Assembly (NCBI GenBank): GCA_036971475.1
Contig: JBAIZL010000006.1
Location: forward strand, 17,065,959 to 17,129,958
Reading direction: 5' to 3'
Source: Prosapia bicincta
Taxonomy: Eukaryota; Arthropoda; Insecta; Hemiptera; Cercopidae
DNA: 64,000 nucleotides
Below the pieces are notes generated by a model. That model saw only the letters and a list, made by a program, of their open reading frames with translations. It did not search any database and had not been told where the DNA came from. Numbering within the stretch: position 1 is the stretch's first letter; the number at the start of each line of letters is the position of its first letter. A program made the translations under genes and the position numbers. Shown here one piece after another: positions 20,443 to 61,201 of the stretch.

Positions 20443-20484
20443 GTGATTCGACAATGGTCAAGTGACCGAAAGGTACCTCATCAC
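20443..20484 (+). ncRNA. Hammerhead-like motif, array unit 1
   Basis: Helix I GTGAT/ATCAC (5 bp), core TCGACAA plus one extra T, helix II GGTCA/TGACC around AG, GAAA, self-complementary GGTACC, then T-C before the closing helix I strand. Three perfect helices in the order and spacing of a hammerhead. The core has U3 and A8 where C3 and G8 are canonical, and C4 for U4. Confidence 0.5.
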
Positions 20485-20596
20485 AACAAGGTAAAATTAT
20501 TGCACTTAATGGTGGATAAAATTACTTACAATAGTAACATATCAACTTCATAAAGTCAGTGCAACGGAAAAATAATAATGGACAACGTAAAATATC

Positions 20597-20655
20597 AATA
20601 TATATATATATATATATATATATATATATATATATATATATATATATATATATAT
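20597..20655. repeat. (TA)n between array units 1 and 2
   Basis: About 29 TA repeats. Similar TA tracts at 21401-21465, 22074-22108, 22335-22420 and 22739-22808 separate the other units. Confidence 0.95.
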
Positions 20656-21243
20656 TTAGGTTAGTTTTGGTTGGTAAAGATTATTTAGATTTTTTGGACT
20701 AGGAGACTGACAGACTTACCTTGGTAAGAGACCACTCTGTAGTCTTGAAATAGAAACACATAGAAGCACTTAAACAATGATATATTTCAACCACACAGTG
20801 GTCTTTTTCAATCGAAGAGAAAACACAAAAAGAAATATGAGAGAATGAAATAAAATAATTGTAATCACAGATTGTGTAGAGTAGAAATCAGATGTCACAG
20901 ATGCACAGATTAAAGATATATATATTGTTTCCATGAACATATGAGTGATTATAGTTTATATAAGTCTGTCAGGGGAAAAGAAATAAGGCTATTAGGGGGG
21001 AAAAAAAAATTAATGGATTTATCTGATGTTGAGGTTAGGGGATTCTCTGGACTTGGTATACCACTGGTATGATAGTTCCCACCTTCTCAGTTCTGTGGTA
21101 TAGCAGTCATCAAAAGTTGTGATGTTGTGACTCGCAGCATGTTGAGCTGTTGGTCTATCCATATTCATAATTTTAACAATTTTATAATTTTGACCAAATT
21201 AATCCACCATTAAGTGCAATTATTTTACCATATCACTGTAGCA

Positions 21244-21285
21244 GTGATTCGACAATGGTCAAGTGACCGAAAGGTACCTCATCAC
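21244..21285 (+). ncRNA. Hammerhead-like motif, array unit 2
   Basis: Identical to the motif in unit 1: helix I GTGAT/ATCAC, core TCGACAA, helix II GGTCA/TGACC, GAAA, GGTACC, T-C. Identity is expected from the recent 801-bp duplication and adds no independent support. Confidence 0.48.
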
Positions 21286-22181
21286 AACAAGGTAAAATTA
21301 TTGCACTTAATGGTGGATAAAATTACTTACAATAGTAACATATCAACTTCATAAAGTCAGTGCAACGGAAAAATAATAATGGACAACGTAAAATATCAAA
21401 ATATATATATATATATATATATATATATATATATATATATATATATATATATATATATATATATTTAGGTTAGTTTTGGTTGGTAAAGATTATTTAGATT
21501 TTTTGGACTAGGAGACTGACAGACGTACCTTGGTAAGAGACCACTCTGTAGTCTTGAAATAGAAACACATAGAAGCACTTAAACAATGATATATTTCAAC
21601 CACACAGTGGTCTTTGTCAATCGAAGAGAAAACACAAAAAGAAATATGAGACCACTGTGTGGTTGAAATATATCATTGTTTAAGTGCTTCTATGTGTTTC
21701 TATTTCAAGACTACAGAGTGGATTCTTACCAAGGTAAGTCTGTCAGTCTCCTAGTCCTAAAAATCTATATATATTTAGGTTAGTTTTGGTTGGTAAAGAT
21801 TATTTAGATTTTTTGGACTAGGAGACTGACAGACTTACCTTGGTAAGAGTCCACTCTGTAGTCTTGAAATAGAAACACATAAAAGCACTTAAACAATGAT
21901 ATATTTCAACCACACAGTGGTCTTTGTCAATCGAAGAGAAAACACAAAAAGAAATATGAGACCACTGTGTGGTTGAAATATATCATTGTTTAAGTGCTTC
22001 TATGTGTTTCTATTTCAAGACTACAGAGTGGATTCTTACCAAGGTAAGTCTGTCAGTCTCCTAGTCCAAAAAATCTATATATATATATATATATATATAT
22101 ATATATATGAAGTTAATATATTACTATTGTAAGTAATTTTATCCACCATTAAGTGCAATGATTTTACCTTATCACTGATCA

Positions 22182-22223
22182 GTGATTCGACAATAGTCAA
22201 GTGACCGAAAGGCGCCTCATCAC
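22182..22223 (+). ncRNA. Hammerhead-like motif, array unit with GGCGCC helix III
   Basis: Helix I GTGAT/ATCAC and core TCGACAA as in unit 1. Helix II is AGTCA/TGACC (4 bp, the closing pair lost). Helix III is GGCGCC, a double change from GGTACC that keeps perfect self-complementarity. T-C follows. Confidence 0.48.
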
Positions 22224-23007
22224 TCAAGGTAAAATCATTGCACTTAATGGTGGATAAAATTACTTACAATAGTAATATAATAACTTCAAAAAGTCAGTGC
22301 AACGGAAAAACAATGGATAACGTAAAATATCAAGAATATATATATATATTTATATATATATATATATATATATATATATATATATATATATATATATATA
22401 TATATATATATATATATATAGTTTTAGGTTAGTTTTGGTTGGTAAAGATTATTTAGATTTTTTGGACTAGGAGACTGACAGACTTACCTTGGTAAGAGTC
22501 CACTCTGTAGTCTTGAAATAGAAACACATAAAAGCACTTAAACAATGATATATTTCAACCACACAGTGGTCTTTATTTCATTCTCTCATATTTCTTTTTG
22601 TGTTTTCTCTTCGATTGACAAAGACCACTGTATGGTTGAAATATATCATTGTTTAAGTGCTTTTATGTGTTTCTATTTCTAGACTACAGAGTGGACTCTT
22701 ACCAAGGTAAGTCTGTCAGTCTCCTAGTCCAAAAAATCTATATATATATATATATATATATATATATATATATATATATATATATATATATATATATATA
22801 TATATATATTTCACATTGTCTGCTAAGATTCACTGCAAGTGATTCGACAAGACCGAAAGGTGCCTCATCACACAAGGTAAAATTATTGCACTTAGTGGTA
22901 GAAAAGAATTATTTACAAGTAATAATAATAACTTCATATATATGAAGTTAATATATTACTATTGTAAATACTTTTATCCACCATTAAGTGCAATAATTTT
23001 ACCTTGT

Positions 23008-59387: not shown

Positions 59388-59536
59388 CTTCCATCAGCTC
59401 TTTCCATTGTTCTGGACAGGTACTTGGTATCGGAAGTGTTAGTTTGTTAACTGCTACTCCATATGCAATTGCCAAAGCATCAATACCCTTATACGGTGTT
59501 TCCCCGGTCAGCAATTCCCATAACAAAACACCATAG
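59388..59536 (-). CDS. slpr: MLK exon: kinase C-lobe
   Basis: A 149-bp exon joining in phase to the activation-segment exon. It encodes YGVLLWELLTGETPYKGID and continues through AIAYGVAVNKLTLPIPSTCP to WKELMEG. These are kinase subdomains IX to X, including the conserved Trp-Glu-Leu and the short Pro-Ile-Pro run typical of MLKs. The acceptor is TTTCAG|CTATGG and the donor is GAAG|GTATGC. The last base (G) combines with TT of the next exon to give Val before the Cys-Trp of subdomain XI. The plus-strand open frame over the same bases is a shadow. Confidence 0.93.
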
Positions 59537-60043
59537 CTGAAAGACAAAAAACACTGTTACTTTTTACAGATGGAAAAATTCTCTTTGGTAAGAAAAGAAG
59601 ATAAATAATGGCTCTATTGTGCTATATAATTAAACACACAAAAGAATCGAATCAGAGGTAGTATTGAGTAATATGGATATTTTGAAACTAAAATTCAGCA
59701 GTTTTATAAACATTGAAGTTAAATTAATTTTTTTTAGGAATTTACTAATTTTTTGTAATTTTGTATTTACAGTGAGAAAAATCATGCAGCCAAATACAAA
59801 GATTAAGCAATTGTATTTCTAAAGACATATATTTAAGCATTTTCTAAAACACTGTCTTTGTTCACTTCAATTACTTTCCAAGATAATTTTAATACTTTCC
59901 ATCTACAAAAAACCAATTCAGTTCATCATCACCAATAAATGTCAAAAACTCAAATTAAAATAAAATCACAAAAATAATTTACAAAGACATATTGCAAAAA
60001 TATAACGACAAGAAACCAATAAATATATAACAATATAAAAAAT

Positions 60044-60327
60044 AAATAATATTAATAACAACAAAACAATTAATAACAAAAAGTAGCAACAAATAAATTA
60101 TAAGAATACAACAAGTATTATGTATTACAAAAACATAGATATAAAGAACAATAAATAACTAAAACCTAAAAAGATATTTAACAATAAATATAACATTAAA
60201 TAAACATCTATGCACACGTTATTTTAGTCTAAAGTTAATGCTTAATGTTGATATTTATAACAAACTAAATCAATTTGTTACTAGCATATGTGTTTTATTC
60301 TATACATTATTAGAACATATTAAAACA
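60044..60327. repeat. 284-bp direct repeat, left copy
   Basis: Matches 61304-61587 base for base at a constant offset of 1260, apart from a few substitutions (for example TAACATTAA against TAGCATTAA). The boundaries coincide with the two ends of the Penelope copy between them. A-rich, no coding sequence. Confidence 0.93.
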
Positions 60328-60331
60328 TATA

Positions 60332-61129
60332 TTCAACATATACCGAAAACCCACCAGCACTAACACGACCATACACAGTTCCTCAAACCACTCACACCAA
60401 CACAAACTAGCTGCTTACAATACCATGATATACCGCCTCCTTAAAACACCATTAGACAAAGATGAACACTACCAGGAGTTAAACACCATAAAATATATAG
60501 CACAAACAAACGGATACAACCCAACAATGATAGACAAATTATACAACCTCCTAAAAAATAAACATAATAACCCAAATACAAACACACAAGATGACAATCC
60601 CATAAAATACTTATCAATACCACACAGATCATCCAAAACCCACAATCTAACCAACACATTACGAAAATACAACTACAAAATAGCTTACTCCACACACAAC
60701 ACTCTCAACAAACAATTTAAACCCAACAGCAAAATCAACGACATTTACAACACCACTGGAGTTTACAAACTAACTTGCAGTTCATGCCCCAGTTTTTACA
60801 TAGGCCAGACAGGGAGGTCATTTCACACACGTTACCAAGAACATATAAAAGCACTAAAAAACAATAATTCAAACTTCGCCGATCATCTCAACTCCACAAA
60901 ACACGACTACACAGACATAACATCTAACTTACAAATTCTTCATAAACAACACAGAAATAACCAACGCTACACAACCGAACAATACGAAATATATAGGCAC
61001 TTCAAACTACACCCTACACACATACTCAATACACAATTACATTACAACTCACACTCACTTTTTGACATCATAACTCCTAATACACACAAAATACACCCAC
61101 ACCACCAAAATATCCCACCCCCACCCTAA
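60332..61129 (+). pseudogene. Penelope-like RT thumb and GIY-YIG endonuclease, open frame
   Basis: The open frame from 60425 gives 234 codons, and the same frame extends upstream to about 60332 as FNIYRKPTSTNTTIHSSSNH and HQHKLAAYNT, the conserved segment after the RT palm. A linker with ELNTIKYIAQTNGYNPTMI follows. GVYKLTCSSCPSFYIGQTGR begins the nuclease with intact GVY and YIG motifs and a CxxC pair, then SFHTRYQEHIKAL and EQYEIYRHFKL. The RT palm with its catalytic Asp residues is missing, so the copy cannot transpose alone; the absence of stops suggests a recent insertion. Confidence 0.9.
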
Positions 61130-61159
61130 CCTACGTAAACCTTGAGATCAGTTACGGTC

Positions 61160-61201
61160 TGAGTTGACAAAGGGACACATCTCCCGAAACGGCCGTCCTC
61201 A
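61160..61201 (+). ncRNA. Hammerhead-like motif at the 3' end of the Penelope copy
   Basis: Helix I TGAG/CTCA, core TTGACAA plus one extra A, helix II GGGA/TCCC with a 6-nt loop, GAAA, self-complementary CGGCCG, then T-C. It lies about 30 bp after the stop codon of the element. Hammerheads are established in Penelope-like elements, which supports the reading. The core has U3-A8 instead of C3-G8. Degraded relatives sit at 26243-26274 (plus) and about 24873-24905 (minus). Confidence 0.5.

Follow-up and report, generated by a model that had tools for sequence, protein, structure and literature searches.

We analyzed a stretch of 64,000 nucleotides (nt) from the hemipteran insect Prosapia bicincta (contig JBAIZL010000006.1, positions 17,065,959 to 17,129,958; hereafter the window), which carries part of a Penelope-like element (PLE) together with several families of short motifs laid out like hammerhead ribozymes. 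Each intact copy has the same layout: helix I, a core of 7 nt, one extra nt, helix II, GAAA, a palindromic helix III, U and the nucleotide at position 17 (N17), in hammerhead position numbering. Two families have a canonical core with C3 and G8 (family C, CUGAUGA; family D, CUGAAGA), whereas two have U3 and A8 instead (family A, UCGACAA; family B, UUGACAA). All motifs listed in an initial annotation of this DNA were found in the window sequence.

The family B motif lies at 61160..61201 on the plus strand and is composed of helix I TGAG/CTCA, core UUGACAA, an extra A, helix II GGGA/TCCC, GAAA, the helix III palindrome CGGCCG, U and a C at N17; it thus has the three helices, the GAAA and a standard 3-8 pair of a hammerhead. 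It begins 30 nt past the stop of open reading frame (ORF) P0001 (60314..61129, plus), which encodes 271 aa and represents the 3' part of a PLE ORF whose C-terminal part is GIY-YIG-like. In Pfam this window ORF had no match. Homology searches returned 45 relatives, including named cockroach and termite proteins; among the homologues, P0004 contains reverse transcriptase, GIY-YIG and PF26215 domains, and alignment with them showed that the window ORF retains YIGQTGR and two cysteines. The motif therefore adjoins an ORF with the PLE reverse transcriptase thumb and GIY-YIG, in agreement with the initial annotation, which had placed such motifs at Penelope ends.

The surroundings of family B are also those of a PLE pseudo-long terminal repeat (pseudo-LTR): its arms meet head to head with short gaps, at 26 junctions among those listed around the fetched loci (some being one place counted twice), and their 3' ends are unequal, one arm tending to end near 61233-61265 and the other near 61300-61312. 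Among loci L001-L030 we found 53 relatives of family B, with U3 in 53/53, U4 in 53/53 and A8 in 52/53; one identical 44-nt string was common to 34 of the 53. The window has two further pieces, a decayed copy at 24782..24905 (minus), past a PLE ORF remnant at 24982-26247 (minus), and a fragment at 26243..26315 (plus). The 5'-truncated PLE copy ending in the family B motif is flanked by a direct repeat of 292 nt (60044-60335 and 61304-61595; 98 percent identity, spacing 1260), which may be a long duplication that arose upon insertion. In L030 (2715-2900), three family B motifs form a tandem run with a spacing of about 84 nt, and for some copies the dimer could therefore arise within a single RNA.

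Several copies of family A were found in the window. The motif at 20443..20484 (plus) has helix I GTGAT/ATCAC, core UCGACAA, an extra U, helix II GGTCA/TGACC, GAAA, GGTACC, U and C, and a second copy at 21244..21285 (plus) lies within a repeat 98 percent identical to that of the first. The copy at 22182..22223 (plus) has helix III GGCGCC and a mismatched pair close to the helix II base; that at 22838..22871 (plus), read from the sequence, keeps UCGACAA with most of helix II deleted; and that at 23008..23049 (minus) has the core UCAACAA. In 16 copies sampled, the core was UCGACAA in 11, UUGACAA in 3 (all in loci fetched for carrying UUGACAA), UAGACAA in 1 and UCAACAA in 1, and the centre of helix III was UG in 11, UA in 4 and CG in 1. 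C at position 4 is thus the common state of family A as sampled (11/16). Because a hammerhead has U at this position, we class family A as hammerhead-like rather than as a hammerhead ribozyme. Its arms also meet head to head, and in some of them (e.g. L032, L073) the arm starts at or beside the 5' strand of helix I, so that the 5' end of the element and that of the motif nearly coincide.

Families C and D form three helices around CUGANGA and GAAA, and both lie in foldbacks. We built a covariance model from six C3-G8 copies, including the window copy at 30534, and give its scores in bits. The family C motif at 55404..55446 (minus; core CUGAUGA, helix III TGTACA, A at N17; 60.5 bits) has a C.A mismatch at pair 2 of helix I; L014 contains a sister copy that is intact, with 7 bp in helix I. 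A mirror copy at 55502..55547 (plus; 38.7 bits) lies in the same foldback, which spans 55367..55631 and is 78 percent self-complementary. The family D motif at 30534..30576 (minus; core CUGAAGA, TGTACA, G at N17) scored 66.1 bits, being itself among the six model sequences, and its mirror copy at 30617..30659 (plus) scored 41.5 bits within a foldback at 30493..30699 that is 83 percent self-complementary. A decayed family C-like motif was seen at 17496..17531 (plus; 22.2 bits). PLE-like stretches occur near some family A, C or D copies (L032, L057, L062, L064, L068), and these families may likewise be of PLE origin. With C and D in foldbacks and the arms of A and B head to head, the foldback setting that had been described was confirmed, and the copies at 17496-17531 (+), 22838-22871 (+), 23008-23049 (-), 24782-24905 (-), 26243-26315 (+), 30617-30659 (+) and 55502-55547 (+) are additions to those noted initially. 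The initial description of helix strands as pairing in each family needed corrections for the C.A pair of 55404-55446 (-) and the mismatch of 22182 (+), and so did its assignment of strands, TCCT/AGGA being those of 30534 (-).

The window was then scanned without regard to the core, with the requirement that helices I and II each have 4 bp or more, together with GAAA, a self-complementary 6-nt helix III and U. This core-blind scan returned five full-geometry sites from three families (20443+, 21244+, 61160+, 30534- and 23008-, two of which are near-identical copies), compared with 0.195 per dinucleotide shuffle of the window. None of 200 shuffles reached five sites, and the maximum was two. 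The core pattern [CU][UC]GAN[GA]A matched 4 of the 5 window sites and 0 of 39 shuffle hits; the fifth site, with UCAACAA, departs from it by one letter. The family C copy at 55404 (-) escaped the scan because of its one C.A mismatch in helix I. These data support the hammerhead geometry first proposed from inspection of the sequence.

To determine how the cores are distributed, we counted patterns on both strands of the genome (2.2 Gb, 361 contigs), with the reversed pattern as a control. C3-G8 (CTGANGA) was found 32,532 times against 2,100 for the control, a net of 30,432 and a 15.5-fold excess. U3-A8 (TTGACAA) was found 17,834 times against 451, a 39.5-fold excess and a net of at least 17,383, a lower bound since this pattern was narrower than the other three. 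The unmatched combinations were far closer to their controls: C3 with A8 (CTGANAA) gave 7,170 against 4,465 (net 2,705) and U3 with G8 (TTGANGA) gave 7,776 against 5,694 (net 2,082). The net odds ratio for a matched 3-8 pair was about 94 in these pattern counts, which are counts of copies and not of independent events. Outside this genome, viral contigs yielded one weak locus (L077) and prokaryote contigs none. Beyond the window, at C4:1730932-1731362 of the genome, four canonical-core matches follow each other on one strand exactly 132 nt apart, an arrangement that recalls animal retrozymes.

The same preference was seen in a core-anchored test of 77 sources (322 kb, many loci having been fetched for the U3-A8 motif). 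Full geometry was present at 6/16 C3-G8 cores and 23/73 U3-A8 cores, 29/89 matched cores in total versus 0/88 others (C3 with A8, 0/15; U3 with G8, 0/12; A3, 0/45; G3, 0/16). With at least two of the three helices required, the numbers were 9/16 and 43/73 for C3-G8 and U3-A8, 0/15 and 0/12 for C3 with A8 and U3 with G8, 1/45 for A3 and 0/16 for G3. A core-blind scan of the 77 sources gave 39 distinct sequences, and in none of them was C3 combined with A8 or U3 with G8. These results agree with the earlier proposal that C3-G8 was exchanged as a unit for U3-A8.

Covariation within helix II was analyzed in the canonical families only. Among 100 matches listed for the canonical core, 71 had the common spacing and 29 were left out; the 71 comprised 42 distinct copies. 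In these, 229 of 252 helix II cells were paired, whereas re-dealing the 3' strands 2000 times gave 194.2 on average and 209 at most, and pairs 2, 4 and 5 each occurred as A-U, G-C, C-G or U-A; the C preceding GAAA was fixed by the search pattern. The nt between A9 and helix II was U in 69/71 and G in 2/71, whereas in hammerheads A9 usually steps directly into helix II. MAFFT set the cores of the mixed families out of register, and that alignment was not used. An asymmetric decay of wobble pairs in helix III was considered and dropped, since neutral mutation is expected of dead copies.

Taken together, these data suggest that the motifs copy the layout of small type I hammerheads, stand at the 5' edge of PLE ends and likely act as dimers, that the canonical families would cleave after position 17, and that U3-A8 was swapped in as a unit; we assign this reading a probability of about 0.55. 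Because a palindrome of this length cannot fold back into a helix of its own, helix III would be formed jointly by two RNAs or by two tandem copies. The self-complementary helix III would then allow the motif to work as a dimer, and RNA of elements with a canonical core would be cleaved after position 17. In at least two families the C3-G8 pair has been replaced by U3-A8. Folding predictions favoured the dimer over a pair of monomers in each of the four families (in kcal/mol, A -29.0 versus -19.0, B -31.3 versus -18.8, C -28.0 versus -17.6, D -22.0 versus -15.2), and the predicted dimer of family A, alone of the four, was an exact double hammerhead. The UUGACAA family probably still cleaves, though slowly, because the U3-A8 pair has been reported active elsewhere. 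The UCGACAA family is probably a poor cleaver or an inactive one, to judge from the C at position 4, which is normally invariant.

Several results weigh against this reading. The predicted dimer of family B has helices II and III without helix I, in that of family C helix II is displaced by six nt into the core, and that of family D has all three helices but pairs G17 with C3; family A in its foldback context is not predicted to fold as a hammerhead. A G at position 17 is not expected to be cleaved; N17 is G in the window copy of D and A in that of C, and the genome pattern admitted only A, C or U. Run on the window, the C3-G8 covariance model gave two family A copies scores no better than noise (8.3 bits, E 7.4), and family B was absent from its list, so that neither family is recognized by the canonical model or by Rfam. 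No Rfam family matched in the window at the gathering score, and within 55350-55500 Rfam gave three sub-threshold small nucleolar RNA matches and nothing else. The Rfam hammerhead model had no match in the genome either, a result that is uninformative, since 14 control genomes were equally silent. In one hammerhead that was put to the test, the 3-8 pair could be rescued by a G:C swap only (PMC9901934, as far as its available text goes). Because the genome counts are of copies, the switch from C3-G8 to U3-A8 may represent one or two events. Finally, among 97 distinct family B copies anchored at their tails, 0 have a start less than 5 nt away from the predicted cut; most of the loci had been fetched because they carried the motif intact or matched in full, so starts at the cut were less likely to turn up. 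Of these copies, 48 reach beyond 61100 on the 5' side and 5 begin at 61101-61142; another 34 begin where the motif has its 5' edge (61143-61163), 7 within the motif and 3 beyond the cut.

Because no sampled copy starts at the cut, and because hammerhead mutants of an Anolis PLE still insert (PMC11167929, in the part available), the integrated family B copies sampled seem to derive from uncleaved RNA templates, and the motif may have a structural role. This raises an alternative that we regard as somewhat unlikely, namely that the U3-A8 lineages keep the hammerhead fold as a non-cleaving structure, a signal for dimerization or for binding of reverse transcriptase, while the core drifts through CUGANGA, UUGACAA, UCGACAA and UCGUAAA. 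In addition to the start sites (0/97) and the Anolis cleavage mutants, whose insertion was unaffected, the frequent C4 of family A (11/16) fits such drift, as does a further lineage in the window, lineage E, which by eye combines UCGUAAA with a comparable layout. Against it, the 3-8 pair stays matched, U4 is present in 53/53 family B copies, and G5, which a pure scaffold need not keep, is kept in most A and B copies. The broader proposal, in which one retrotransposon lineage held on to its three-helix fold as its core wandered from CUGANGA by way of UUGACAA and UCGACAA to UCGUAAA, so that a ribozyme that cuts itself became a signal for dimerization and reverse transcription that no longer cuts, seems to us distinctly doubtful.

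The U3-A8 families could also be canonical hammerheads that decayed after the death of their elements, the matched pair having arisen by chance. Old repeats most often carry C to T and G to A substitutions, and the net 2,705 sites with C3 and A8 and 2,082 with U3 and G8 resemble such decay. U3-A8, however, exceeds each single change several-fold, and the identical 44-nt string shared by 34/53 family B copies includes U3-A8, so U3-A8 is the state of the copies that spread; we consider decay very improbable. As for mimicry of the layout by AT-rich, palindrome-rich repeats, inverted repeats are indeed dense in 19500-23500 (905 pairs), but five sites against 0.195 per shuffle, and excesses of 15.5-fold (C3-G8) and 39.5-fold (U3-A8) over the reversed patterns, refute chance palindromes and leave this explanation a negligible probability. 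The U3-A8 group probably represents a known self-cutting RNA in a weakened or purely structural form, and not a class of its own. With about 30,000 canonical copies, at least 17,000 U3-A8 copies and a C4 family, this one genome offers a natural mutational series of the core, which bears on whether selection keeps cleavage or only the fold.

Lineage E, a putative lineage aligned by eye, has 13 listed matches, some without GAAA or with other cores; its layout reads GCU-UCGUAAA-A-GGAAC...GUUUY-GAAA-CGCG-UC-AGC or variants. One motif, with core UCGUAAA, is at 1042..1086 (plus), and another copy, at 57850..57893 (plus), has a fully paired helix I, TTTGCT/AGCAAG; both were recognized by eye. Remnants of a second PLE lineage are present at 210-590 (-), 583-1004 (+) and 57258-57748 (-), and lineage E motifs lie just past the first two, that at 1042 following the 583-1004 remnant. 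Elsewhere in the window, a perfect 28-nt inverted repeat (62177-62204 and 63017-63044, 812 nt apart) perhaps marks the ends of a small DNA transposon, and ORFs at 41769-42398 (+) and 49837-50265 (+), with weak RNase H and endonuclease/exonuclease matches, are probably remnants of other retroelements.

Minimal type I hammerheads of PLEs were reportedly described by Cervera and de la Pena in 2014, and dimer cleavage of such PLE motifs is said, in the title of Lunse et al. 2017, to occur. Citing papers, in their accessible parts, confirm that minimal hammerheads are known from PLEs (PMC7761336, PMC7229834, PMC6155905), and one of them calls their role unknown (PMC7761336). Compared through these papers, the motifs described here share with them a very short helix III, the type I order, a place in PLE pseudo-LTRs and thousands of copies per genome, but differ in the U3-A8 of families A and B, the C4 of family A and the extra nt between A9 and helix II. 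Perreault et al. state that in several natural hammerheads C3 and G8 covary to U3 and A8, and that in vitro activity of cores of this kind had been established before (PMC3088659, available text). Because this covariation was reported in 2011, the suggestion that U3-A8 is an undescribed variant was not borne out. Our families resemble those examples in that the pair is kept through the change, whereas PLEs are unnamed and C4 is unmentioned in the available part of that report. We found no report of U3-A8 or C4 in PLEs in the open-licence literature, and core-variant terms were absent from the accessible part of a paper on hammerhead-like sequences in a virus. In the accessible literature we did not meet a high-copy PLE group fixed for U3-A8, a C4 family or the looser UCGUAAA lineage, the last possibly a further-drifted one.

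Other known systems share parts of this arrangement; the comparisons below draw on those portions of the sources that were available. Animal non-LTR retrozymes carry type I hammerheads that act as dimers in amphibians, but they consist of tandem units of about 300 bp and make loop-loop contacts, whereas the copies here are mostly dispersed or head to head (PMC7229834). We rejected a retrozyme identity: the window has no tandem units of about 300 bp, and the short runs elsewhere (about 84 nt in L030, 132 nt at C4:1730932-1731362) are not the common form. The Poseidon PLE of Anolis likewise has GIY-YIG and a hammerhead in its pseudo-LTR, and its 3-8 pair matters, C3G/G8C partly restoring cleavage; its core, however, has C3 and G8, and its ORF begins inside the motif, whereas here the motif follows the end of the ORF (PMC11167929). 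The Penelope elements of the rotifer Adineta vaga have inverted pairs of pseudo-LTRs with one arm shorter, an optional short tail and a palindrome at the 5' end of the pseudo-LTR, as seen here, although a hammerhead is not discussed for them in the text available (PMC3846280). Because head-to-head inverted pseudo-LTRs have been described in PLEs (PMC3846280), the Penelope ends and the foldback repeats of the initial annotation are probably one and the same setting.

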